Shown here in pieces: positions 235 to 44,900 of a DNA stretch of 64,000 nucleotides. The DNA lies in NCBI GenBank assembly GCA_017506865.1, contig JAFCMP010000023.1, positions 1-64,000 of the forward strand. The letters are read 5' to 3'. The position numbers and the translations under genes are program-made. Below the pieces are notes generated by a model. The model ran no database searches. It saw only the letters and a list, made by a program, of their open reading frames with translations, and was not told where the DNA came from. Position 1 is the stretch's first letter. Each line of letters starts with the position of its first letter. The stretch comes from Tribonema minus (taxonomy: Eukaryota; Sar; Xanthophyceae; Tribonematales; Tribonemataceae).

Positions 235-1982
235 GTCGTGTTCGCCTGCCACGCCGACACGGCGCTGCAGCTGCTGGGCGCGTCTGCGAGCGACGCCGAG
301 AAGGACGCCCTCGGCGCCTTTGCGTTCGCGCGCAACACCACGTACGTGCACTCGGACGCCGCGCTCATGCCGCGGCGCCGCGCCGCGTGGAGCGCGTGGA
401 ACTACATGGGGGACTCTGCCGACGCAGCGGCGCGGGGCGGCGGCGGTGCCAAGCCTGTCTACGTGACCTACTGGGTGAGTCTTGCGCAGTGCGGCGCGGC
501 GCTCGGTCGCGCAGAGCTCGTGAGCTCCGCAGCGTGGCTGGTTCGTTGCTTGAGTACCTGAGTTGAAGTACGTTCAGTGTGCGAGCGCAACGCACGGCGA
601 TGCTGCGGAGGGCGAACACGCGCAGCGGCAGCAGCGCTGCGCCCTGCCTCCGTAAGCATGCTCCCAGGGGGAGGCGCTGCGGACAGACATCTGATGCGAT
701 CTCGGCCGCGTCGCACGCACGGCGGCACACTGCGCCCGCGCCGGCACACGTAACGCATGCACATTGAAATCGACACCGTCCCCCCCCCCCCCAATCCCGC
801 CCTGACGCAGCTCAACAAGCTGCAGAACCTGGACTGCCGCGACAGCGTCTTTGTGAGCCTCAACCCGTCCGCGCCGCCGGACCCCGCCAAGACGCACCGC
901 GTCATCGAGACCACGCACCCGCAGTTCACGCCCGAGGGCGAGCGCGCGCAGCGCAAGGTGGCGGCGCTCAACGGGCGGCGCGGCCTCTGGTTCTGCGGCG
1001 CGTGGATGGGCTACGGCTTCCATGAGGACGGGCTCAGGCAAGTGTCGCTGCGTTGCCCGCAGCAGCGCTCGATAACGGCGGCGGCGGCGCCCTCTGCTGC
1101 CGATGCACACACAGCCGCATGTTACGTTCCGTCTCTGACACACAGCCGCATGTTGCGTTTCGTCTCTCATACTAGCAGCGCATCGTATCGTTGCTGGTTC
1201 CTGGAGCGTACGTCAATTGCTCGCTCACCATTTTGCACGCTTCACGGCAACGGCAGTTACTCCCGCCGGTGAGCAGACTTCCACTCACTTACTCTCTGAC
1301 AAAAGCTCACGGCCGGGCAACCTACCAATGCACGACGGCGCGGGCCTGCCACTGCTGCTGCATCGCACCAGTAACAGGCATCCTAAGCGCTCACGGCTGC
1401 CCGCTCACGCGCTGTCGCCGCCGCCGCTGCTTGCGCGCTGTGCGCAGGTCCGGCCTGGAGGTCTCGAGCGCCATCACCGGCAAGCCCGTGCCGTGGGCGA
1501 CCGGCAAGCAGCTCGTGGTGCCGCAGGTGAGAACGATGCGGAGCTGCATGCCTCGCGCTAGCCAGGGGCTGCTTGATGTCGGCTCGCACTCGTGAGGCGC
1601 GTGCGCTAGTAGTCCCGCAGGTACAAAGGAGCTGCAGTGCTTGACCTAGCCGCGGCTGGTTCGATGCCGTCTTGCACTCGTGAGGCGCGAGCCTGCGCGC
1701 GTACGCATTGCTGCAAAGTCACATTCCTGGTATTCCGCGGCATTGCCGGCGGGGGCTAGGCTAGCAATTGGCGTCACGCCCATGTCGACCTCTCCAGTCA
1801 GTGACGTCCAAGTTGGGTACGAGACTGCAAGAACGCAGTTATGAGGGTAGTGTAACGTCACGAACAGAAGGTTAGAAGCAGGTTTTTGAACTTGAGTTGT
1901 AGGCTTGTCCGGCGATATGGCAACGCTCTGAAATCTCTGCACGCTCTGAAAACTCTGGATGCTCATGTTATGATGCTCATTA

Positions 1983-2022
<40 letters not shown>

Positions 2023-5000
2023 CGTTGCACGCGCTCCGACAGCCCTGCCTGCCCCGCGCCGAAACGCTCGGCAGCAGCGGCACCGGCTGGGCGTACCGAG
2101 CCATCACGGCCATCGCGTTCCGCTCCATCCGCGCGTTCCTGTCGCGCACGATACGCGTTGGGCGCCTGGTCATCACGTGCCCCGACGGGCAGCAGCTCGT
2201 GTTCGGCGAGGTGCTGCCGCGGAAGAGCAAAGTGGTGAGTGCTGCTGCGAGAGACGCTGGGGAACGGGGGTGTGTGCTGAGCGCGTGCGTGCGTGGTGCA
2301 TGGTGTGAATAATGCAGGCGGAAGCGCGTGCGCTGCATTGACGTCATTGGAAGCGCGCTCGGGCAGTGAAAAAGAGGCCCGACGTGGTGTTTGCTGCACA
2401 GCCTCTGGAGTCTAGTTGTCGATGCATGTCTCATTGTGCACATAATGCCAGCGGGTCTTCGCCCAGGCCGCGCTTCACTTCAACCTCGGCTGCACAGGCT
2501 AATTGACCGCGCACCGTCGCACTGCCCTTAGAGGCACTTCAACAAGTGCTTACTGAATCGCCGCAAGCTGTTGAGCCGCCCACCGTCCAGCCGCACAACT
2601 GCCTGCGCGCAATTCATTGACTCCATTTACTGTGTGCATGGCACTACAAGCTGCTCTGCACGCCGTTGCCACGAACCGCACCGCCGTCACCGCGCCAGCG
2701 CTCTGACGTCAGCAACGCTCCGCACGTCACCACCTACCCCACCCTCTAGCCCCCCCCCCCCCCCGCCCCCTCCCCCCCTTCACGCACCGCGCGCACCGGC
2801 AGATCCACCTTCGCGTCTTCGACTGGTGGTTCTTCGTGCGCGTCGCGCTCGAGTACGACCTCGGGCTCGCGCGCGCTTACATGGCGGGAGAGTGGGCGGT
2901 CGCGGACGACACGCGCTACGCCGACGGCCTGCGCGCGCTCTTCCTGCTCTTCGTCGACAACCGCGACGCCGAGGGCGGTGCCGCGCTCAGCGTCTCGCGC
3001 CTGCTCACCAGCTGGGGCGGCTACATGGTGAGCGCTGCTGCTGTGCGCGCAGCGTCGCGCTGCGCGTGCGCACGCGCTGGTGCTAGGACCGCGTGCGTTG
3101 TGAACTCCGGTAGTGTCTCGTAAAGTGACACTTCGCACGACAGGCCTGCACACCAGCTGGGGTGGTTACATGGTGAGCGCTGATGCGTGCGGTGTGCGCG
3201 TGCATGCGGCTGCGTCGCGCGCACGCACGCGCTGGTGCCCTGAAGGGCCCCGCGCCCATAGAAGCGACCATCACCAGTGACAGGACGCTTGACACGTGCG
3301 TTGCGAACTCCTGTAGAGTCCCGTAAAGCAGCACTTCACACGACGGGCCTGCACACACAAGCTGGGGCGGGCACAGTACATGGTGAGCTGGCGCGCGCAG
3401 CGTAGCGTGCGCGCTTGCGCTGTTACCACACGCGTTATGAACCCTGGTATAATAGGACAGCCTTGCGCATGACAGGCGCGCACGCGCCGCCGTTTTCTTG
3501 CTGTCCGTCGAGCGCGCCGTTGCCAAGGGGAGGCGCGCTGGGCACCGTGTGTCGGCCGCTGCTCCGACTTTACGCGCTTTGTCAGCAGTCGAGACATCAG
3601 AATGGCAGCACCCTGCATGTTGGACGGGGTCGTCAGCAACGCGGGGCAGGCGTTGAACGTGGCGCCAGCGGTAATGCACGCAGCAGCTGGTTCCTACACA
3701 GTGCCAACCTGTCCTGATGTGGACACTTCACTATGTATGACCAATCGCCGCCTTGGTGTGCAACGGCACTCCGTGTCGTAGCTGCTGCTGCCGCTGCTGC
3801 TGCTGCTGCTGCTGCTGCGGACCACTGGGTCACACACATACACATCATGACTTGCTCCGCCCCATCTCAGTTCTTGAGCAGGGTAGCTGCGCGCTCAGTC
3901 GCACATTTTGCGCGACGCCGTTGACCCCCCCTCCCCCACTTCCCCCCCACCCACCCCCCGCCACCGCAGCTCAACTTTGTGCGCTACCGCCTCTCCATGG
4001 ACAACTCCCTCAGCGGCTCGCGCAGCAACATTCACGCGCACTACGACCTCTCCAACGACCTCTTCACCACCTTCCTCGACGCCGAAACGCTAATGTACTC
4101 GAGCGCCATCTACGACGCCGCGCTCGCGCCCGTGCCCGCCGCGCGCCGCGAGCTCGCGCGCCCGCCGCCCGCCGCCGACGCCGCCGGCGCCGCCGCGCGC
4201 ATGGAGGCGGTGGTGGCGGCGGCGGCGGCGGCGGGCGCGGCGCCCGAGGAGTACGAGCTCGTGTTCAGGTGAGGAGTGTGAGCTGGTGTTGAGTGTGAGC
4301 TGATGTTTAGGTGAGGGGTGCGCGCATGGGAGAGAGCGCGGTGTGGTTCCGGGGGCACCTGGCGTGGGGGGTTGTGTGGCGCGGTTTCGGAGTGGCGCGG
4401 GGGTGGGGGGGGGGGGGGGAGGGGGCATGGGGGCGTGGGGTGCGAGGTGCACGATGTTGCACAGGCATCGTCAGTGAGCAAGCGGGGAGAGAGGGGAGAG
4501 AGAGAGAGGCAGAAGCAGGGACTCGAGGTTTAGCCGCGCTGCGTTGCGCGCAGCAGCGCAGGCGCACCCAATTGCCCTCAGCATGCTTCTGAGTAGGGCA
4601 TCTCATACTCAGACATCTGTGCAGATACGTCAGTGCCGAGGAAGTACCTTTGAAGTCTCCCGCCCCCCGCGGAACCTCCTGCGTCGAACGCTTCCTCACC
4701 GCGCCCCCCCCCCCTCGCCCCCTCCCCCCATGCACGCGCGGCCAGGGGCACCCTCGAGGAGGCGCAAATTCGCAAGATCGACACGCTGCTCGCGCGCGCG
4801 CGCGTGCAACGCCACCACACCCTGCTCGACATCGGCTTCGGCTGGGGCGGCGTCGCGATCCGCGCCGCGCAGACGATCGGCTGCCGCGTCTGGGGCATCA
4901 CGCTGAGCACTGAGCAAAAGGCGCTCGCGGAGGCGCGCGTGCGCGAGCGCGGCCTCGAGCACCTCATCACCTTCGAGCTCGTAGACTACAGGTGAAATGC

Positions 5001-7979
5001 GGCGGTGCGCGTAACGCAGGCGCTGCGGGCTTGAAAACGTTGTGCGCGCGTGCGCTGGCGCCGTTGGGCGCTGAGCAGAATGTACAGTAGTCACTGGCTT
5101 CTCAATCACCTCATCACCTTCGAGCTCGTAGACTGCAGGTGGGGCAGTCGCGAAGGAGGGTTGTGCGCGCAATTCAGTCGCTGTGGGTTTCGGATTACGT
5201 GAAACCGTTCGTTGAGAAGCAAAAGGTAGTCACTGGCCTGCCAAGCACCTCATCATGTTGGAGCTCGTCGACTGCAGGTGGGGCGCGGAGAGAGGGCCGT
5301 TGGTTTTTAAAAAGCATTGGTGATTGATTCGCTGAGCACTGAGCAGAAGGTACAGTGGTCACTGGCGCCCAAGCACCTCATCACCATCGAGCTCGTCAAA
5401 CTACAGGTGGGGGCGGGCGCGAAAGACGGCGGTGCGCGTGATGCAGGCGCTGTGGGTTTCGAATGTTGTGAATGCGTGCGCTGACAAGTGAGCAGAAGGC
5501 AGTCAGACACTGGCTTCCCAAGCACCTCGTCACCTTCGAGCTGGTACACTACAGGCGGGGCAGCTGCGAAAGGCCGCGGCGCGCGTGATGCAGGCGCTGC
5601 GGGTTCACAAATGTTGTGCGTGCGTGCGCAAACGCCACTGAGAGCTGAGCAGAAGGCAGTCGCTGGCTTCTCAAGCACGTCGCCACCTTTGAGCTCGTTG
5701 ACTACAGGTGGGGGCGAAGAATGGGCCGTCAGAGGCGCGAAAGGCGGCAGCGCGCATCCAGCAGACTGTGTAGGCTTCAGGTGTTTCACATGCGTGCACT
5801 CAGAGCTGAGCAGAACGCAGTCGCAGGCTTGGCGAGCACCGCATCACCTCCGAGCTCATCGACTACAGGTGGAGTAGGAGTTTGTTGAAGCTGCAGAGGC
5901 AGCGGCGGCACGTGCACTGCAGGCGCTGTGGGCCTTGAACGTGTGAATGTTCACGCGCTGGCGTTGCGGCAGAGGGCGCTCGCTGTGCAGCGCGCACGTC
6001 GCGTCCAGCCTCCTTCGGCGGCAGGCACAGGGCAACAGCGCCGTCGGAAATGGGCGAACAGAGGCCGCAGATCATACTACCAACAACAGTGTGATCGGCA
6101 GCCCTTGTAAACAGCTTTGCGTTGTGCGCTGGGGTGTGAGGAAGCAGCCGCACGAGCGTTCGCGCATGCTCAAGCAGCGGCGTGTCGACCACGCGTCGAC
6201 CACGTGGCACTTGGCACGTGACGACTACCCGCTGTGAAGCACCTCGGGCGGGCTCAGCAACGAGAACGTTTGTGCATCGGCACATGTGTCCCGTACCGGT
6301 TGCTCGTCGAGTAACAGCCGCTTGCGCTCCGCTTCGGTGGCGCCGTTCTCCCGTGACAGGGTCGCCCGCTGATGTGCGATACTAGCGGCAGTTGCGCTCA
6401 AATGTAACCGCTGTCTGACGTTGCCGCTCTCCCACGACAGGGTCTTTGCGCGGCAGCACCGTGGCGAGTTTGACCGCATTATCTCGTGCGAGATGATAGA
6501 GGCCGTCGGGCACAACTACCTGCCGAGCTACTTTGCCGCGGTGGAGGCGCTGCTCGCGCCGGGCGGCGTGTTTGTCATGGAGGTGAGCGCTGCTGCTGCT
6601 CTCAACCTCAACTCCGATGTTGCCTTCTTTCATCTTCAAGAATGGGTACTTTCAGGTCGAATTCACCTGCCCGCCGCTGCGGAGCTGGAATAAATGTGCA
6701 GTCTGAATAGGGGGCCGGCGACATCGTACTGCCATGAACCGCTGCCTCGTCGTTCAGAGCCTCGCATGTGTTGATATTGCCTCTAGTGGGTTGGCGATGT
6801 TCTGCCTGCCACGAGCTGGTGCCCCATCAAAAGCGAAGCTGGACGCAAAACGCACTGCACTTCAACAGTCAGAGCATCGATGCTGTACACTTATCTGGTC
6901 GTCGTCTCGCATTAAGAGGAAACTCAATACACTTGTACTTCAAATGTGCACGACTCAAGTGCAGCTTGCAATCTGCATGCTGAAAGGTCTCTGAGGCGTC
7001 CTTGTGTGATTTTGCCTGCGCCAGGCTGTCTTGATCTTTGCTGGCCTTCCTGGGTCTTCAACCGTCCTTTTTGTATGTGCTTGTGCCTGTGGTGTGCAGG
7101 CCATCACCACGCCGGAGAGCCGCTACAAAGAGTACCTTCGCAGCACGGACTTCATCAACACCATCATTTTCCCTGGCAGGCAAGTGACTTGCGCCGCATG
7201 GCCATGCGTGCTACAGTATGGGAAAAAACATAGAAACTGCTGCACTTGTTCCAGCGCTCGCCTGAAAGCCTTGTGACAGCTTCAAAAGGGGCGTATGCTG
7301 TGCGGTGCAGCATTTCTGTGTTGCGCCGGGGGGAAAACACGCACTATCAGCAGCAGCCTCTCTCTAGCAGGCAGAGGGTATCATCTTCATGAGCTTAAGG
7401 TAGCAGTCGCTTCCTCGTCAGTGCACGGCACACATAGTCAAAGTTTTCCCTCTATGCACAGGACAGTGTTCTATGCAGGCAAGCCCCACACTAACTTACG
7501 CACAATACGCCGTCGCGCTCACTTACTTACATACCCCCCCTCCCCCCCCCCGCGCCTTTCCCGCCGCGCGCAGCTGCTGCCCGAGCCTCACGGCGCTCAT
7601 GGACGCCATGGCCTCGCACTCGCGCCTCTCCCTCGAGGGCTACGAGAACATTGGCGTGCACTACGCCGAGACGCTGCGCGAGTGGCGCTGCCGCTTCACC
7701 GACGCGCTCCCCGCGCTGCGCGCGCGCGGCTTCGACGCCGTCTTCGCGCGCTGCTGGCACTACTACTTTGCGTACTGCGAGGCGGGCTTCGCGTCGCAGA
7801 CGGAGGGCTGCCTCATCCTCACCTTCAGCCGCCCCGGCAACGCCGCGCTGCTCGTGGACGCGGAGACGCACCGCGTTCTCGCCAAGAACGCGACCAACGC
7901 GGACGCCGCCGCGGCCGCGGCCGCGGCGCGCCGCGGCAGCGTCGGCGGCGCGCGGCGCAGCAGCAGCGTCGGGCTCTAG
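235..7979 (+). CDS. FAD-dependent amine oxidase / cyclopropane-fatty-acyl-phospholipid synthase fusion (5' partial)
   Basis: Ten exons are visible: 235-474, 811-1037, 1448-1526, 2043-2234, 2803-3027, 3970-4268, 4746-4991, 6441-6582, 7100-7179, 7574-7979; they give 711 residues in one frame. Exons 1-3 match the C-terminal part of the FAD/NAD-binding oxidase domain that plants fuse to this enzyme (LMPRRR, SAWNY, GLWFCGAW). From exon 4 on it reads as CFA synthase: HYDLSNDLF, MYSSAIYD, SAM motif LLDIGFGWGG, SCEMIEAVGH and ENIGVHY. The known reaction transfers a methylene from S-adenosylmethionine to the double bond of an unsaturated phospholipid acyl chain at the membrane. The cysteine of the bacterial YSCAYW motif is serine here, as I recall for plant forms. 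An alanine/proline-rich insert (exon 6) precedes the SAM domain. The N-terminal Rossmann part lies before the window. Introns 2 and 9 (after 1037 and 7179) begin with GC. Family is sure; exact splice points are inferred. Confidence 0.9.
1985..2021. repeat. 37-nt pure C tract before a 3' splice site
   Basis: An uninterrupted run of 37 C ends 21 nt before the AG at 2041-2042 that opens exon 4 of the CFA synthase gene. It occupies the place of the polypyrimidine tract. Shorter C-rich runs stand in the same place at 780-792, 2751-2778, 3926-3960, 4706-4730 and 7535-7551 of this gene. Confidence 0.9.
3000..3400 (+). repeat. Degenerate tandem copies of an exon end plus donor inside intron 5 of the CFA synthase gene
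   Basis: The exon end at about 3001-3027 with its GTGAGC donor recurs at about 3146-3180 and again, with small insertions, at about 3350-3393. The sequence between copies also repeats, including TGTGAACTCC and GCGAACTCC followed by GTAGnGTC. The period is roughly 150-210 bp. The real exon is taken as the first copy because it continues the open frame; the later copies are not needed for the protein. Confidence 0.75.
4900..5875 (+). repeat. Six extra degenerate copies of the exon-7 end and donor in the following intron
   Basis: The end of exon 7 (GAGCTCGTAGACTACAG, then GTG) is repeated with AG|GT or AG|GC junctions at about 5138, 5277, 5406, 5554, 5707 and 5868. Each unit also carries part of the upstream exon (GCTGAGCAnnGAGCAGAAGG, AAGCACCTCATCACC) and part of the downstream intron (GGCGGTGCGCGTGATGCAGG). 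Units are about 130-160 bp and diverged from each other. They lie inside the 1449-bp intron 4992-6440 and are not required by the protein. Confidence 0.85.
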
Positions 7980-27000: not shown

Positions 27001-30000
27001 CCCCCCCCGCCGTGCCCCTGCGCAACGAACGCCGTGAGTGCGCCGCACTGCAGCACATCGACACGTCTTCACCTACCCACGCAGCACTAGCATCTGGCAG
27101 GATGCCGCCGACAGCGTGCGGCAGACATCCTACGAGCTCTGCGGCCGCTGCCTGCGGCAACGATCAGTACACATTTGCATAGCAGAAGGCGTCTTGCAGC
27201 GCACGCGGACGCACCTGCCCGCGGCCCTTGACAATGTCGCCCAGGCCGCGCACGGCGCGGATGCGCACCTGCAGCGCGTCCGGCGGCACGTCGTCCAGCG
27301 TGCGCAGCCGGTTGCGCCGCGTCATGGTCCACTGCCACGGCGGCGGCGCCGCGCCGGGGATGGTGCGGACCTGCGCAGCGGCGCAGGGGTCGGCAGGGTT
27401 GAGGCGCGTGGGCTCGAGACGGCGCTGCGCACGGGCAGTTGCGGCTGTGCTCAGAAGGCAGCACGGCACCGGCACGCGGTAGGGCGGGGGTCGTGACCGC
27501 GCTCAGCGCGGGTGATGGCGACAGTGCGCAGCACAGCGCGGGGCGCAGAAGCGGGAGAGCAGTAACCGCGGACGTGTGGGGATGATGGCGGTCCATGAGT
27601 GGGGCGTGGCGATGCTCAGGTAAGGACGGCGCGGGCAGGGGAGCGCGCAACGGCGCGCGGGGCGCGCTGCGGTCAGGCTACGAGCGGGCGACGATCTGGG
27701 CGCCGCGGCGGGAGCTGCGGCAGTGCGCGTGCAGCCTGCATGGATCGCCTTGCGCATCGCATCATGCGGCGTGAGCAGCGCGTTGCGGCGCTCAGCGACC
27801 GAGCTCAGCTCGTTCAGTGGTCAGTGCAGGAGCTCCGCACACGATCGGGTGCAGAGGGCGGAAGCGGCAACGCGCGCGCAGCCGCCGCGCACTGCGCCTG
27901 CTGAAGCGCCACCATCTCGCAGGCCGCCGCCACGTGTGACTGACAGTCAGACTGCTCATCGTGGAGCACTGGGCAAGCGCGCCAGCGCCCTGTCAGCGTT
28001 GGAGCAGTGCAACAAGTCGCTGGCGTCCTACGTGCCTCCCGCAGGCGCGAGCGACCTGCACGACCACAGCCGTGTATTAGCACAGCACCAGTGTCAGCGC
28101 AGTCGTCCCAGCGCTCTGTAGAGCACTCGTCAAACTTGACGCGTGCCTGGTCTTATACGACGTACCGTTCGCAGGCGCGCGAACTGCGCGGCCGTCTCCT
28201 CCGCACGCGCCGTCAGTGTACCTGACTCGGCAACGCTCAGCACACCTTAGGTTCCAGATGTCGCAACTGCCCTCCAAGCGTGCCCTCAGCGCGCTGATAC
28301 CAACTTCAACTTCACCTAACCTCAGCCAATACGCACGCACCTCCCGCAGGCGCGCGAGCTGCGCGGCCATCTCCTTGGCGCGCGCCGTCTCCTCCTCCGC
28401 GGCCTTGCGGTCCACCGCGAGCAGCTCCTTCGCACGCGCGATGTGCGCCTTCATGGCGATGGCCAGCGCCTGCTCCAGCGGCGAGAACGCGTCGACCGCC
28501 GGCGCCGCAGCGGCAGCGTTGCTCAACGCGTGGCCTGATGCCTGCGGGCGCGGAGAGGGGTGCATGACGATGATGCACAAGGCATGAGCCGGGTTGGAAG
28601 AGGTGGCGAAAAGACTGTGAGTGCGGGCACCAATGCGTGCGCCGTTGCTGCTGTGAAGGACGCGGCTGCAGTGATCCGCGAGGGTGCTCGTGCGGTGGGG
28701 TCAGAGAGGCGATGCGGCAGCGCTGCTGCGCCGCGGCATTCTCACCGCAGCGCCAATTTTGCGATCAAAGCACGCAACACAGCCAGCGTTCCCGCACACG
28801 CACCCGCCGCTGCTGCCGCTGCTGCTGCTGCGCCGGCGGCGCCTTGGCCGGCGTCACCATCTCTGCGTCATCAAAGTCCTCCTCGCACAGCGAGTGGAAG
28901 CTCGCGTCGTCGCTGCTCTGGCGCTGCAGCGGCAGCGGCGCGGCGTCGTCCATGCTCACGGAGCTACCGCCGCCGCCGCCGCCGCCGCTGGCTGCGCCGA
29001 GCGCCGCCGCGTTGGCGCTGCCCGATCTGCTGCTGCCCGAGTACCTGCGAGCCGTGAGATCCAAGACAGCCGATTTAAATGCGTTGCTGATGTCATCCAA
29101 CACCGCGTGGACGGTGCACCAGTGATTCGATACAAGGGGGCCTGAACGGGGCCTGCTCTGGCCGAGTGCGCGCACACGGAGGCGGTGGCGGCGGCGACGC
29201 GCAGTGGAGCCAGCACGCGGCGCCTGAAGCACGACGCGCGGTCGCACAGTGGCACTCCAGCAGCGCTCACTAGAACACACTTCAGCAGATGATGTGTAAC
29301 GTCGAGCGCTGTGCCATCATACCAACGTACCTGCGCACGGCGGGGACAGGCGAGCCGGAGCGCGCCGCCTGTATGCGGTCGCCCTGGTCCTCCAGCATCT
29401 TGGCGCGCCGCAGCTGCGCGACCGCCTCCGTCTTGCGCCCCTCCTTGAGCAGCGCCTGCGCGGAGACCTGCGCGAGGCGACACTCAGCGCGCGGCAGCAG
29501 CAGCAGCAGCAGCGTCAGCAGCAGCAGTGGCGGTAGTAGCAGCGTCAGCGTCAGCAGCAGCATTGGCAATGGCTGCAGCTGCAGCAGCGGCGGCGGCAGC
29601 GGAGCGCCGGTGGCGGCGGCAGCGGCAGCAGCGGGGGGGCAGTCGCAATATAGGTGCAGCGCCTGAGAGCGAGCGCGCGTGAGGGCGTTCGCTGCACGCC
29701 CTGCAGCGCCCTGCGAGTGCGCATCAGTGTCGCCTCGCTGCACCAGCGCGAGCTCGACCGCACGCGCACCTCCCGCGCGCCACCTACCGCCCCGCTGCAC
29801 AAACACGAGCGGACACTGATCGTGACGCAATTTCTACTGCTAACGCTTAATTCAACGCTAGAAGACACACCTTGAGGGCGCGCGCCTGCTCCATCAGCGC
29901 CTCCGGGTCCGGCCCCCCACCCCCCACGCTGCCGCCGTCAGACCCCCCTGACACAGACCGCGCCATGCCGCCGCCGTCGCCGCTGACGCTGCAGGAGGCG

Positions 30001-32997: not shown

Positions 32998-35900
32998 ATG
33001 ACAGAACCCGTGGTTGACTTTGGCGGTACAGAGGAAAATGCTCCGTTGCCAGCGCCTGGCAGCCCGAAGGGCTCGACAGCAGGGCTGGCCCTGACAGGGG
33101 GGCCCCTCAAGTTCACCATGCATGCCGCGGATGACGAGGAGAAGCTGAGGGCCCTGAAGACCGGCTACCTGGTCAAGAGGCCCTCCCTGCGCAAGCACGG
33201 CAACGGCATGAAGATGTGGTCGGGGGGGAAGCGCAAGTTCTTCGTGCTGAGGGGGGGCTCCCTCACGTACCACAAGGACCACCACAGCGTCGACGACCCC
33301 ACGAGCTCCCGCGAGATCCTGCTCACCGCGGACTGCGACGTGGAGTACTTCTATGACCCGCCAACGGCGCCGTTCGGTTTCTGCGTCACGTCGCGTGGCA
33401 AGGTGGGCGAGGGATGCTGCATGTCCTGAGCGGTTGCACCAGCGTGCTGCGCCATTTGAAGTCGGTGCGCTTCGCATCGCGCGCTTCCCAACGTGTCGCC
33501 GTCGTGCAACTGTATACTGGAGCGACCTCGTCAGATGAGAATGCGTAGATTGCCACAGGCAGATTACTTGGGGGCAGCACTTAGCTTGGTCGTCATGCCG
33601 CATGTGCATGCAATCACCAACACGTTGTGCAGCTCCAATTTCTAGCATGCTGCCAGTGCACGGTGCAAGATCACGCACCAACGTTCCCCAGGCCAAGCGG
33701 CAGCGTGGTCATGCGCCTGCTCTTGCTTCAGGCTGCGTACACAAGCGTCGACGGCCAGTTCAGGGCACCACCTGACGGCCGCAAGTGTCCTGGCATTCCT
33801 TTGTGTTGCCACTGGCGCAGGTCCTGCAGCTGGTGGCAAAGGACGTGATGGAGCGGCAGGAGTGGAAGGACGCCATCAGCATGGTCATCAATCAGGTGAC
33901 AGTGGTGTCGCGGATGTGCTGTGTTGCAGTTGCAGTTACGCTCACTGGTGCATGTTGAAGTTGCCGTAGAAAACAGCACGTCTCACAAGCGGGTGGGCGA
34001 GAGTGGCCTCCTGCCTGTGCCACTCAGCGACGCTGCATTCATTCTCTCATCAGGTTAGCACAGCACGTCGTAGGGCTGAGCACAAGGATATATTAAGCAC
34101 TGTTATCATCGTCCTGCTAGATGGTGCACCGGCGTTTGGCATGGTGAAGCGCAGGCAAGTACCTATCACATGTGTGGCGATGCTACGTGTCGCGTCGTGT
34201 CGCGTCTCTGATGCGTGTGCTGCTGTATTTTCCTACCACAACCATCCAAGAACACAATGCGCAAAACTCTGAATCATCGCCAACATTGGCAGTGACTGAC
34301 AGCAGACAAGTGGCCTTTACACAACGCCGTATTCCAATCCGCCCCAATGTACACAGGGCTTTTGTGCTTCTTGTGCCCTGAGCAAGATTCGACGAAGAAA
34401 GCACAAGGGAGGGGGGGGGGGCGCAGAGTCAGCGCATGCTTCACCCATTTCTGAGGTGAAGCGTCATCTCTGATCTGCGTGGTACCTCGTTCCCTGTGTG
34501 ACCGCGAGCGTGTAGGGGAATTCACCTTAACTTGAAGCGCTTCAAGCGCACTTCATGCGGCCAGGGTCATGGTGCTGGCACCTAGCGCACCATCTCGTCG
34601 AAACTGTCAGTGGCTCTCACACCACACCGCCCCCAAGTTCTGAGTGCCGTCAGAGCCCCGGCGGCGGCAGTTCAATGTTCATCGGCACCCCAACCACAAC
34701 TTCAACTTGAAGTTATGTGCGCAGAGTGTATGCGCAGCGTCCACGGTGCCAGCTGCGCCAGCCCATGCGCGCACACGGCGTACTTAGCCGTACGCACAGC
34801 ACGGCAAAGTCGCTCCGGAGCAACGGCCATGCCAAGGCGCGCGTCATCGAAAGCGCCAGTCGCATGACGCCGGCTCTCGGGGTGCCGCGATGCGGACGAC
34901 GCAAAGCCTCGATCCCAGCAGGGGCTGACGTGACGCCCCCTCCCCCGCGGGGCTGCATGAGAAACCGCTGTCCCGCATCCTCAGCCTGACAGCTGCGAGG
35001 TGCGCACGTGTGCCCTCACCAGCGCGAGTGCGCGCCTTCCCTGAACCTAACCCTGACTCCAACCCTCGCCCTAACTCTTGCCCCTAGGTGCGTACGTGTC
35101 CGCCTCGCCGGGCGCAGCACTGCTCAGCGAGTGCTCGCCGCATCACACACGCGGGCTGGCAACATGCGCAATGAAGCGTGCGTCCGCACGGTGACATGTG
35201 CTCAGCACCCCCCCTCCCCCTGCTTTCAGGCACGTCCGGAGCGCTCAGGCTCTTGTATGTCCGCTGTAACGGAAACGCACGCGACACCTACGCCATCAGG
35301 CGCGCGCCCGCTCGGACTCTGCGTCATTACACGCCGCAGCGCGCGCCCGCACGTGCCGAGTTCGCTAGGCGACACGCCGCTAACCGCTGCAGCGCGCCAC
35401 ACGCACTGTCACTCAGACTCAGGACTCACGCTGCGACACATGCCCCCTGCCCCCACCCCCCTCCCCCTTTTCATGTGCATGGCACCAGGTGCGCCAGACG
35501 ACGCGCGGCTACCTGCTCAAGCGCAACGCGGGCGGCGCGCCGTACGTTGGCGGCGGCCCTCCGCCCGCGCAGTCCCTCGAGGAGGACATCCTGTGGACGC
35601 GCAAGTACTTCATACTCAACGGCACGGAGCGCTGCCTCACGTTCCACACGGACCACAGGTGAGTTTGCATGTACTGCTCTCGTGTACTGTATCTACAGTG
35701 TACTGCTCGTGTACTGTACCTGCACGGAGTGTCATCTGTACTGAACGGCACGGAGCGCTGCCTCACGTTCCACACGGACCACAGGCAAGTTCACGTGCGC
35801 GGCCTGTACTGTTTGTGTACTGTACCTTCAGTGTACTGCTCGGTGTATAGTACCTATACGGAGTGTCATCGGTACTCAACGGCACGGCAGTGCTGCCTCA

Positions 35901-38900
35901 CGTTCCACACGGACCGCCGTGTGCGTGGGTGTACTGCTCGTGTACTGTACATGTATCGGGCCTTAAATTCTACGGCACAGGGCGCTGCCGAACGTCCTAC
36001 GCGGACCACAGGCGCATTCACACTCGCATACGCAGGCTGTGCATTTGCAGTGCGCGCGCGCTGTGTGTTGTAATCGGTGGCACAAGGCTCTGCCTCACTT
36101 TGCATGCGGATCACGGGCAATGCATGTGCACGGTTCATGCTGTACACAACACTCAACACAGAAGCCTGCTGCATGTGCTCAATTCATGCTGCACACAACA
36201 CTCAACACAGAAGCCTTCTTGGGCATCATTTGATGGCAGGTCACCGGCTTGACTGATGGTGTGCCTGACCAATGGTCACACATACTTGAAGTTACCACGT
36301 GCATTGCAGGCAAACCTCACGCCCACATTTGCTGCTGTTGTCATGTCTGTTCTTCGCGGCCGTTGTCTGCAGCGCGGCATGCTGTGGCCTTGCCGCTCGA
36401 GTGACGCCCAATCAGGGTTTATGCATATAAAGCGTGCAAGCGCGTGATCATCCCAGCGATCAGGCGGTCACTGCATATCTATCGAGATTACGTCTAATGC
36501 TTCACGTGTGCTCCCGTCTGGCGCTGCGCCAACTGTAATGCTGAATTGGCAAGCGCACAGCAGCAGCGCGTGATCAGGCGCGCCTCACTGCTGTCTCGCG
36601 CGCCGAGCGCCAGCTCTGACACGTTGTTCGTGTGTTGGTGTGCGCCGCAATTTTGTCGCGCGCAGCCAAGCGCTCTCAGTGCAGGGCTCGTTCCTGCTGT
36701 CCAAGGACACGGCCGTGGAGAAGAAGCCGCACAACGTGGTGATGCTCAGGACTGGCGATAACATTATGGTGAGGCAGGCGCATGCCATTGTCGGTGAAGT
36801 TGACGAATGTTGCTGACATCGTCGACTTGGCGTCATGGTGAGGCAGTCGCACGTCATTGAAGCTGACGAAGCATGTTACTGAAGTCGTGAAAGTGACGCG
36901 AAGGAGGCGCTTTTCAGATCTGACGCGGCGTGAAGAGTCAACAGACCGGTACTTGACGTGAAGGAGGCGCAGTTCAGATCTGACACGGTGTGTGAGGTAG
37001 CGCAACACGTGCAAATGAGGTATCGACGCAGGCCTGACGCGCACGCCGCGCGTGTGCGCGCTGTGCCGCAGTGTGAGTACGCATATGCACGGATGTGTGG
37101 ACGTGTGCAGGGTTAGGGTCAGGGCCACCTAACCCTAGTCTAACCCTGGGTCTACCCCTGCAGTGCGCTCGTGTACACGCTGCTGCCAGCGACGAGGCGC
37201 GTGAGCAGCGTAGAGCAGTGCGAGTGCCGCAGTTCATTGTGTTGCTCGCGCAGCACTTTGAACCCTACAGCCTGGAAGAAGTGACGCCTAAGCGACAGCA
37301 TGCATGACAAGTAAATCACCCAACGTGGATGCCACTACAGTGAGCGTGGTCAGATTTCAACAGTACGCCGGACACCCCACCGCGCTCGGCAGCAAACTTG
37401 AGCCCGATGAGCGCGCCAACGGCACATGCTTTGAGGCGGGTTGAATCAGTCACGTACGGTGCGTCTGAAGGAACGCGCTTAACATCTTGCCTGCGTTGAT
37501 GTCTCAAAACCATTGCATGTTCATGGATAGGCTACTCCATGGCTTATCATGCATCATGAACATGATGGGCATACCGCATGACCCCCCCCCCACCCCCCCC
37601 CCATAAAAGCAAATCTGCTGCGTGTGCCCCCGCGACGACAGGTGTGGCGCGCCGACAACGCTCAGGAGTGCCAGCGCTGGGTGACCGCGATCGCCAGCGT
37701 CATCACCGAGGCCAAGCGCGTCAGCAGCAGCCCCGCTTCATCGCCAAAGGTAGGAATGCGCACTGGTCGCACTGACCGCCGTGGTGTGCTGTGCGCTCTG
37801 ACGGCAGATGAGGGCGCCAGCGGCAGCTTCTTCTAATGTGCTTTTGACACCTTTTCGGTGCACGGTGTGTGCGTGGCGGCTCAGCGGAGCGGCTGGTGGC
37901 AACGGAGCACGTGTGGCTGTTGAGCATCCCCACCGCCGTTCGCATGCACCGCGCGAATGGATGCTAGTGCGATCCTTGAGAAGCAGACTGCAGCGTTCAA
38001 GGGCGCTCAAGGACCGCCACCGCCACCACTACCGCCACCGCCACCACCCACCCTCATCCACGTGGCAGCCTTTTGCCCGGGACGTGCCATACGTTTGCGT
38101 ACATGCCGCACGCCGCGTCCACCCGACCTGCACTCCCCGCCCCACGTGCCCGGGACTACAACCCCCCCCGCGCCACCTGAAAACGCTCCGTGGCACTCGA
38201 AACACCCATGCTGAGCAACTGACACCTCGGCTCTTCCTGCGTGCAGGCCGCCGCCGCGCTCGCCGCCTTTGCCTTCGCGCCGCCCGCGCGCGAGGGCCCT
38301 CGCAATGGTGAGACCGAGCTGAGCCGTGGCTACCTGATGACGCGCGTGGCGCCCGCGGGGCGCGCCGCCGCGGAGGCGTGGGTGCCGGCGTTCTTCGTGC
38401 TGAGCGCTGCCGCGCTGTACCGCTATGAGGACGAGCAGCACGTCGTCCCGTGCGCGCGCCTCGCGCTCAACCCCAACTGCAGCGTCTTCGAGACGAACCT
38501 GCGCACGGACAGGTGAGCGCTTGCGTGCGCGCTGGGGGCGCGGGGGGGGGATGGGGGGGGGGGCATGCATGCCTGCACCATCAACTGGCCCCTCAGTGCC
38601 TGCGTTCGGACAGGTGCGGAGTGTGGAGGGGGGGGGTAGGAGGGGGGGTATACTTGCCAACATGCACCATATTGGCTCCGCCGTGCAGTGCGGTGCGTGC
38701 TGAGCAGCGCTGCTCGCTCGCGCGCCGCCCTGCAGCTTGCGGCCGAGCGCGCTGATACAAATGCGCATGCTCGTGCTGTCAGCCTTGCCCAGCGGGGCGC
38801 TGCGGCTCCCCTGTGCCGTCTCTGACGCTCATCGTGGTGGTGCGGCGGTGTGCGAGGCAGTGCGGCGGCGCAACTGGTGCTCGGCACCGCAGTTGTGTCG

Positions 38901-41900: not shown

Positions 41901-44900
41901 CATCGTGCAGTCTTGTTGCTTTCGCAACGAGCCGCAATTTGCGCGCCGAGCGTGGAGCCGTACGAAATGTCGACGGCCGGGCGTCAGCGTTCGCCGCTGC
42001 ATCATCGATCAATGCTGCGTCAGGTTACAGGAGCTGAAACTGCGCATCCTGCATGATGTCACGGTGCCAGCACACTGGACTGCCTGTCTCCGCGCACTGC
42101 TTGCTGCGTGCCCGTCGCTGCAAGTCATGAGACCCCCCCGTGGCCTTCCGTCCTCATTGCTAACGCACATCGCGACGCGCTCGCGCCCTTGCGCGCAGGT
42201 GGCACGCGCTGCACTTTGTGCTGGGGGAGGGCCGCCTGAGCTGGTTCACGACCGACACGGCGGGCGCCAAGCTCAAGGGGACGGTACGTCGTGGCACGCA
42301 CTTGAAGTTCAGAAGCTCATGTGCATGAACTTAAAGTGCATTTGGAAGTAAAGAAGCTCGCGTGACCGCACTGACCAGAGGCACACAACCCCCCTAGGCC
42401 TTGTAACAGCTGGTGCTGCGCGTGACTGTGCTCTTTGTTGTGTCCTATATCGGATGCAGCGGGCGCGTAGCGCACGGCAGCAGCGGATGCGTGTTGGTGC
42501 ACGCACGCCCTGTCGGCCGTTGGCGCCAAAACAGCGAGAGCTCGAGCTCGGCGTGCGAGCGCGCGGTGTCTCCCAACACTAACCCCAACCCTAACCCTGG
42601 GACACGCGTGAGCCCCCTCGGTCAGATTAGCAACAGAGCACCCGCTCCTTGCCGCAGCGCAGAGTCACCTCAACACTGGCGCCAATCCCCCGATGCAACC
42701 GCAATTACGGCTGGAGTGGGCGCGCGCGGCGCTAGCGACCGTGGCCGAAAACGGTTGCGTGCCTATTGTACAATGGCTTATTGTTTGGCGCGGACTGCAG
42801 CGCGCTCCTGCCTGCGCGGCTCAGTGGCGACGAGCGCTGCAGACACGCAGCTGATTGCACTTGGATGTCATGACGCGCGCCTCACTCACAAGTGTGCTGG
42901 GGGCGCAAGGCAGTCTGACCCCCCCCGCCCCAACACTCGTACTCTCGCTCTGACAGAACGCAGGCTGACCTTCCCCTTCCCCCCCCCCCCCGTGTGCTCC
43001 CCAACGGTGCCGCGCAGGTGGCCATGATGGGCAGCGCCGTGAGCCTGCTGCCCTTCGACGAGGCGGGTCAGCTCAACTGCCTGCGCGTGGTCAGCGGCAT
43101 CACCACGCTCACCCTGCAGGTGCGCACACAATATGCAGAGCACAATCGCAAACGTGTGCTGCCTTGCACTGTTCTGGATACGCGCCGCTGCCCTGCGCAG
43201 AGGCGTTGAGCATCACCACGCTAACCCTCCGGGTGCGCACACGCTCTGCAGTACACAGTATTAAGCATGTTTGCCGTGCATCGCTTGCGCGCCGTTGCCG
43301 TGCGCAGAGGCGTCGAGCCATGTAGCTGCTCCATATGTGTGTGAGTGAGCGTGTGTTTGCCCCCCCCCCCCCCCACTGGGCGCGTGCGCCGATGCCAATC
43401 CCCCACGATTGCTCCACCTCAAATGGGACATCGTCACGTGTAAACGCAGACGCAACCACTGACAGAGCTGCTCAGATTGGGGACAGACTGGGCTGGCCCG
43501 AGCCCCTGCGCCCGACACACGTCGCAGTGCGTTGCACACTCAGTAGGTTCAGCATTGTGCGTGTGCGACAGGACCATTGCCGACTGCCGAAAAGCTTTCA
43601 AACAGCACCGCGCCACCAGTCACCTCAAACTCCAACCACGTAACTTCAGCCCGCCCGACCCCCTAGCCCCCCACCTGCCCCCCCCCCCCGCGGCAGGGCC
43701 TCACGCACGAGGACATGCTCGACTGGGCCAAGCACCTCTACCAGGCGAGCGCCGTGGCCAATGGCGGCGGCTACCTGCTAGAGCGCGAGCGCGCCAAGCA
43801 GCGCGTCGCCGACGAGGAGAGGGCGCGCAGGGAGCAGGCGCGCGCCACTGAGCAGGAAGCCGCGGAGCGCCGCCAGGTGCGCGAAAGTGGCGGTTTATGC
43901 TTGGACTCTCGGTGAACTCTCTTGCAGGCGCTCGCGGTGCGGTGGGGGCAGCCTACGGAGCGCTGCCAATGCGGCGGTAGTATCTACGGCCGTGCGTGCG
44001 AGCAGTTCACTCATGAATTCTTTCTGCGTATGTTTGCAGCACGGTGGGGGCAGCCGGCGGAGCGCTGCTGATGCGGCGGCAGCATCTCCGGCCGTGCGTG
44101 CGAGCAGTTCACGTGTGGACTCTCGGTGAACGCTGTTTGCGTGCGCTCGAGGTACAGCGATGCAGTGCTGCTGCTGATACTGCGGCGGCAGCCTCTCCGG
44201 CCATGCGCAGAGCTCCACGTTGAAGCTGTAGATGGTGATGCTCAGCACCACACCACCCGGCGCGCCGCGCCTCTCAAGCGCCGAGGCCATGTGTGTGGCT
44301 CCCTCGGTTGCAACGCCGGCGCCCGCCGCCGCGCGCGCAGACGCGGAGGCACGGTATCACTGCTGCATGCGGTGCTCACGTGCACACGCCTCAGTACCCC
44401 CGTACTCCTCGACGCGTGTACACCGCAGTACACTTGCTCTGCTCAGCGCGGGCATGCGCGCATGCGTGCGCGCTCGCTCTCAACCGAATCTCCATCACAC
44501 ACAGACTGCACGCGGCTCACATCTATCACGTGCACGCGGCTCACCTCTATCACGTGCGCTGTTCCCGCCCTCTCAGGCCGAAGCAGAGGCCCAGGCGGCG
44601 GCGACAGCGGCGGCGGAGCGCGCCAAGACGGAGGCTGCGGCAGTTGAAGACGGCGCGCTGCAGCGCGCGCAGCACACGGCGGTGGCGGCAGCGGCGGCGG
44701 CTGCGGCGGCGGCGGCGCGCACGGAGGCCGCGGAGCTTGCCGCAGAGCAGGCTGCGGCGGCCGTCGCAGAGCTGGTGAGCGCCGCTGCGCTGGTCTTTAA
44801 GGGGCTGCACCTTCGCTGCTGCACGTCGAGCGCTGTGGCGGTTGTGGGCTGCAGGAATTGTCTGACGGCATGAGCACAGACACGGCAGGAGAGGCTGTGC

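Follow-up and report, generated by a model that had tools for sequence, protein, structure and literature searches.

An array of exon-end copies in an intron of a CFA synthase gene, probably left by tandem duplication across the 5′ splice site of an older intron

The origin of intron sequence has mostly been argued from single cases. Intron 7 of a CFA/cyclopropane synthase gene of Tribonema minus raises the question anew: downstream of its 5′ splice site the end of the preceding exon recurs several times, and the splice site recurs with it. Are these copies alternative exons, splicing points, the traces of a newborn intron, or intron sequence left behind by duplication? The DNA analysed (the window, 64,000 nt) comprises the first bases of contig C23; the genome totals 158 Mb in 554 contigs. 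The gene models are predictions of our own gene finder, which stand in for an annotation.

Copies of the exon-7 end in intron 7

The 3′ part of the CFA/cyclopropane synthase gene lies at bases 238-7979 of the plus strand. Its ten predicted exons give a single open frame on joining, and a profile search places a Pfam CMAS match (5.5e-40) on exons 7-9, which crosses the joint 4991/6441 between exons 7 and 8. Exon 7 (4746..4991, plus strand, 246 nt) ends with CAG at 4991 and is followed by the donor GT at 4992. Intron 7 (4992..6440, 1449 nt, phase 2) ends with the acceptor AG at 6439-6440, and the CMAS match and the open frame carry on in exon 8 (6441..6582).

Intron 7 contains six diverged copies of the exon-7 end, each with its donor region, that are arranged head to tail from 5063 to 5962. 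The source is the last ~89 nt of the exon (4903-4991). The units occupy 5063..5203, 5204..5330, 5331..5478, 5479..5633, 5634..5795 and 5796..5962 of the plus strand and abut without gaps; their exon-end copies run to 5138, 5277, 5406, 5554, 5707 and 5868, respectively. From exon 7 through the six copies, the exon ends are spaced 147, 139, 128, 149, 153 and 161 nt apart. The first-pass annotation had reported six extra copies with their donors and had proposed a self-alignment as a check. The top self-alignment of the window indeed bears them out (819 columns, 67%, E 1.2e-56), and all six junctions could be located. That every junction reads CAG/GT (the slash marks the splice junction) is correct for five of the six, and the copy at 5554 has CAG/GC. 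The copies also fill most of the intron, as had been stated, that is 971 of 1449 nt if the first intron stretch is included (4992-5962), and the array runs to ~5962 instead of the 4900..5875 assigned to it at first. The 90-nt donor window of 4992 scored 79 against the remainder of its own intron, and the array is far above chance. As contiguous head-to-tail copies of one unit, the six units qualify as a minisatellite-like tandem repeat; the array was absent from the list of Tandem Repeats Finder at the threshold used. Compared with the genome, the array stretch had a single match among the best candidates scored, which was the window itself, and no unrelated loci.

Exon-like sequence followed by a donor, six times over, could be read as a set of alternative or mutually exclusive exons. 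Like tandem exon duplications in general, the array consists of exon sequence in tandem copies within a gene, but only the 3′ part of the exon was copied (~89 of 246 nt), without an acceptor and without the frame. Not one whole exon with both splice sites is thus present, a stretch of 14-19 nt is missing in all six copies, and reading through leads to a stop. Furthermore, the differences between copies and exon follow no codon pattern (14/78, 10/78 and 8/72 at codon positions 1, 2 and 3). We regard alternative exons as very improbable.

Probable history of the array

Since the units span exon end, AG/GY and intron start, head to tail, the tandem duplication must have crossed the junction, as proposed in the first-pass annotation. 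The further proposal, that the process ran repeatedly at this one junction, did not survive. Repeated duplication at the exon-7 junction was rejected on account of the deletion of 14-19 nt, which is common to all six copies and is not seen in exon 7. In line with the deletion, the distance from AGCARAA to a CACCTC-like motif is 47 nt in the exon and 28-33 nt in the copies (the 28 nt of the copy at 5868 is measured from the first motif match; a second match gave 36). Over exon positions 4922-4953, identity is 0.78 among the copies and 0.25 between copies and exon. In the exon-end part, identity is 0.86 between copies and exon and 0.79 among the copies; in the intron-start part, the values are 0.67 (to the original at the exon-7 junction) and 0.58.

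It is the copies that represent the derived state, because the length of exon 7 agrees with the CMAS profile (154 residues on 151 positions) and the protein of a paralog, described below, is equally long in the deleted stretch when compared by eye. Since the deletion and a motif absent from the exon are common to all six copies, it was apparently the intronic copy that was multiplied. A single duplication across the junction followed by multiplication of the intronic copy would be the simplest account of the sequence. A tandem duplication would first have run across the 5′ splice junction of a pre-existing intron; the founder copy, then situated within the intron, would have lost 14-19 nt and would have been multiplied head to tail to six units, which would finally have diverged from each other. 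Splicing would have continued from the original donor with the protein unchanged, so that the duplications would have been tolerated and would merely have lengthened the intron. We infer this order of events, the use of the first donor and the near-neutrality of the copies. Altogether, the array is probably what remains, in decayed form, of a tandem duplication across the donor of an older intron, which was lengthened by it.

Age of the intron

The units are in tandem and carry AGGT, and the first-pass annotation had accordingly invoked intron birth through duplication of an AGGT-bearing segment. As required by the Rogers model, the motif is present in the duplicated segment (CAGGT in five, CAGGC in one of the six). 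However, there is a second CFA-type gene on contig C549, with matches at 582893-583210 and 584342-584788, that has an intron at the same place in the protein and in the same phase 2 (GLEHLITFELVDYR/VF in the window, GLANVTVITGNINT/FD on C549, aligned by eye). This intron of 1089 nt has no donor array, its donor window scoring 19 versus 79 in the window gene, and no repeat family links the exon end to it. Within this genome, the intron is therefore present where the duplication is absent. In addition, intron 7 begins and ends outside the array, and the acceptor at 6440 belongs to no unit. Because the corresponding intron of the paralog matches it in position and phase and has no array, intron 7 apparently predates the array, and what we see would be the growth of an old intron. 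The paralogous intron makes intron birth very improbable.

The C549 gene is also the site of an acceptor-spanning duplicate, which lies in the intron preceding its CMAS exon (1219-1286 and 1455-1522 of L027).

Splice sites in the copies

Could the copies function in splicing, as recursive-splicing points or as decoy donors by which removal of the intron is directed or delayed? If the original donor at 4992 is used, the frame is open for 710 residues; if exon 7 ends at a copied donor instead, all six give a stop after 502 residues, immediately past exon 7, because the junction reads AG/G TGA. In a splice-site model trained here, all six copied donors score below the original (0.72-3.70 versus 4.19), which speaks against a function. 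In favour of it, four of the six copied CAGs outscore the true acceptor when taken as acceptors (2nd-28th percentile of the predicted acceptors; true acceptor, 11th percentile). However, exon 7 itself already scores as an acceptor at the 11th percentile, and the copies therefore need not have gained any acceptor quality. The same applies to AG directly before GT inside an intron, by which recursive-splicing points and stwintrons are recognized. It is retained in five of the six copies, with GC in the other, which is in keeping with a function but is also expected, because copying an exon end yields AG/GT.

Selection on copied donors was considered and dropped, as no significant effect was seen with 33 copies in 14 arrays: the copied GT was retained at 0.91 versus 0.87 on the exon side (p 0.11 by array; the 14 arrays were hand-picked from 15 donors tried, one of which had no copies). 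When copies were compared with each other, the exon-derived half was more alike than the intron-derived half in all nine arrays with at least two copies, a third point in favour of a role in splicing. Detection bias, as simulated, explains 0.005-0.026 of the mean difference of 0.136 between the halves. With gaps left out, over 40 nt, the exon half was higher in seven arrays, equal in one and lower in one of the nine. Indels and the composition of the intron start may be the cause of this difference; weak constraint on the copies is possible, and the greater likeness of the exon-derived halves could count against an explanation by neutral decay. Judged from the sequence, a function of the copies in splicing would nevertheless be improbable, and the array is most likely without function.

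Junction copies at other splice sites

Missed by the first-pass annotation were junction copies in other introns of the CFA gene and in other genes. By self-alignment and junction test, the exon-5 end with its donor (3028) recurs twice in the next intron of the CFA gene (3144..3420, plus strand). The junction at donor 1527 has a weak copy at 1605..1684 (plus strand, self-alignment), which is below the threshold of the test on 142 introns described below. Across donor 4269 there are short tandem copies of 17-25 nt (4246..4315, plus strand), which are evident from rows of Tandem Repeats Finder and from the sequence and gave no copy in the junction tests. Donors 3028 and 4992 are the only ones of the CFA gene that passed the 142-intron test. 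In a predicted gene with PH-domain matches, self-alignment shows the junction at donor 35659 copied three times (35739..36012, plus strand); this donor is outside the 142 tested introns, as the next predicted exon is just 4 nt long. In the same gene, one copy of the junction at donor 43120 (43210..43280, plus strand) was detected by self-alignment and junction test, and so was a copy, at 28155..28214 of the minus strand, of the predicted donor junction by exon 28341-28541.

Twenty loci of 10 kb (100001-110000 of C1-C20) were sampled in addition. Junction copies were found there in a gene with EF-hand matches (L018), in a kinesin gene (L014) and elsewhere; a UPF0029 gene (L021) has them at two junctions, the first covered by the Pfam match and the second just beyond its end. 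For the kinesin, the profile match reaches position 166 with the exon that precedes the array and resumes on the genome at 167 (C13:110105), which supports the donor independently of the gene finder.

At 3272-3629 of L019, three copies (~87% alike) of a poly-C tract with acceptor and exon start are modelled by the gene finder as three in-frame exons with a repeated stretch of 19 residues. The junction copy at 1288-1410 of L018, in the EF-hand-match gene, includes a 36-nt piece that would give an in-frame mini-exon repeating ARGFIEEDRLLE. L010 has long local repeat arrays at 1142-2463 and 6521-7880, with offsets of ~110 and 145 nt, and as far as examined they have no link to splice sites.

Frequency of junction-spanning duplicates

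The gene finder, seeded from the CFA exons, predicted 213 introns on 314 kb (the window, 50 kb beside it and the 20 sampled loci). Of these, 142 were tested; 2 in short genes, 45 shorter than 200 nt and 24 beside exons of less than 30 nt were omitted. A local duplicate scoring at least 42, with at least 12 nt on either side of the junction, was taken as junction-spanning. The models have known errors: the acceptor copies in L019 and the 36-nt copy in L018 were called exons, the first CFA exon was extended to 540, and the 4-nt exon was placed after 35658. The known copies at 1527, 4269 and 35659 are not included in the donor counts.

Spanning duplicates were found at 11 donors and 7 acceptors of the 142 introns. 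When donor windows were compared with the introns of other genes, none of 1346 comparisons reached 42 with the junction spanned, and in an earlier run there was likewise no spanning match in 470 acceptor comparisons. Some local duplicate was present in 31 of the 142 introns. Similar local tandem duplication thus occurs at other donors, at acceptors and in intron interiors of this genome. The median length of introns with a donor duplicate was 1283 nt versus 568 nt (p 7e-5), which is partly due to the fact that long introns offer more room for a match.

An earlier run (264 kb, score 50) had given 9 spanning donors and 3 acceptors of 94 and had suggested a process restricted to donors. This was dropped once more sequence gave 11 versus 7 of 142 (Fisher p 0.47) and, with the window excluded, 7 of 98 for either kind of site; a clear preference for donors over acceptors is not evident. 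The window alone contributed 4 donors and 0 acceptors of 44, the sampled loci alone 7 and 5 of 59.

Is tandem duplication then directed to splice junctions, for example by transcription, RNA-DNA structure or breaks and their repair? In the interiors of the same introns, a duplicate was present in 97 of 2231 downstream and 100 of 2204 upstream windows, from which 3.2 donors (over 138 introns) and 3.5 acceptors (over 137) are expected. Conservation of the exon half that stays in place makes duplicates at junctions easier to detect, by a factor of 1.32 when evenly spread divergence was simulated. After this correction, the donors in all data remain above the interiors (P 0.0043), and the acceptors give P 0.18. 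Outside the window, the observed counts compare with 2.66 donors and 2.57 acceptors expected before correction. On the other hand, the corrected P values there are 0.067 for donors and 0.058 for acceptors, and 0.067 and 0.25 in the sampled loci. The window itself had been chosen for its array. Moreover, in the earlier run, which used other windows (interior 52/807 and 49/720, exon 43/566, intergenic 103/2533), the interiors were near the donor rate and junctions were hardly above them. An enrichment of junctions over intron interiors of about twofold is therefore suggestive only. A junction-directed process is compatible with the history of this array, and we consider it rather unlikely.

The array looks like one example of a frequent process, a common way of intron growth, and not like a new splicing device. 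It is tempting to speculate, though we hold this only tentatively, that local tandem duplication crossing junctions on both the donor and the acceptor side is a main and somewhat junction-biased route of intron growth here. About every tenth intron would then be left with surplus copies of a donor or an acceptor, from which alternative splice sites, small exons or recursive-splicing points could arise later.

Comparison with known systems

The Rogers model, the ATP2A1 case and fission-yeast genes with several 24-bp AGGT copies are recounted in PMC4974935. Like these cases, the array involves tandem duplication of an AGGT segment, with a protein that would be unchanged, and the yeast genes also share the presence of several copies. 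Here, however, an exon-intron junction was already present within the duplicated segment, and it is an older intron that became longer; no new intron is seen. In the potato RdRp gene (PMC4974935), a tandem duplication over one intron-exon boundary is likewise seen; there it was a single duplication across the acceptor side that gave a new, RNA-supported intron, whereas the array has six copies on the donor side and gives no sign of a new intron. For Lipomyces, PMC7138796 proposes donor duplications of 4-7 nt on the way to stwintrons. A second donor arising beside the first through duplication is common to both, but stepwise splicing is shown for Lipomyces, and the units here are ~130-160 nt long. 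Introners, as portrayed in PMC9860276, copy themselves into many genes and are another route by which intron sequence is added; they recur at many loci, whereas the array stretch has one place in the genome.

What sets the present case apart from those known is the combination of donor-side arrays of many copies, growth of an old intron and frequency within one genome. In the literature searched, which leaves out most subscription journals, we found single-gene cases only and no count of junction duplicates on a genome scale. The recurrence of junction duplicates is of greater interest than the one array in intron 7: they can be counted here and cover a range of divergence, so that their rate, the junction bias and the recruitment of spare sites become measurable in one genome.

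Some observations were made in passing on the 314 kb. For a phosphoglycerate kinase predicted in L004, the best solved relative is 7zy7, which we take to be an algal chloroplast enzyme. According to our own models, among genes whose coding sequence reaches 600 nt or more, 30 of 199 predicted donors are GC instead of GT, and many predicted acceptors come after long C tracts.
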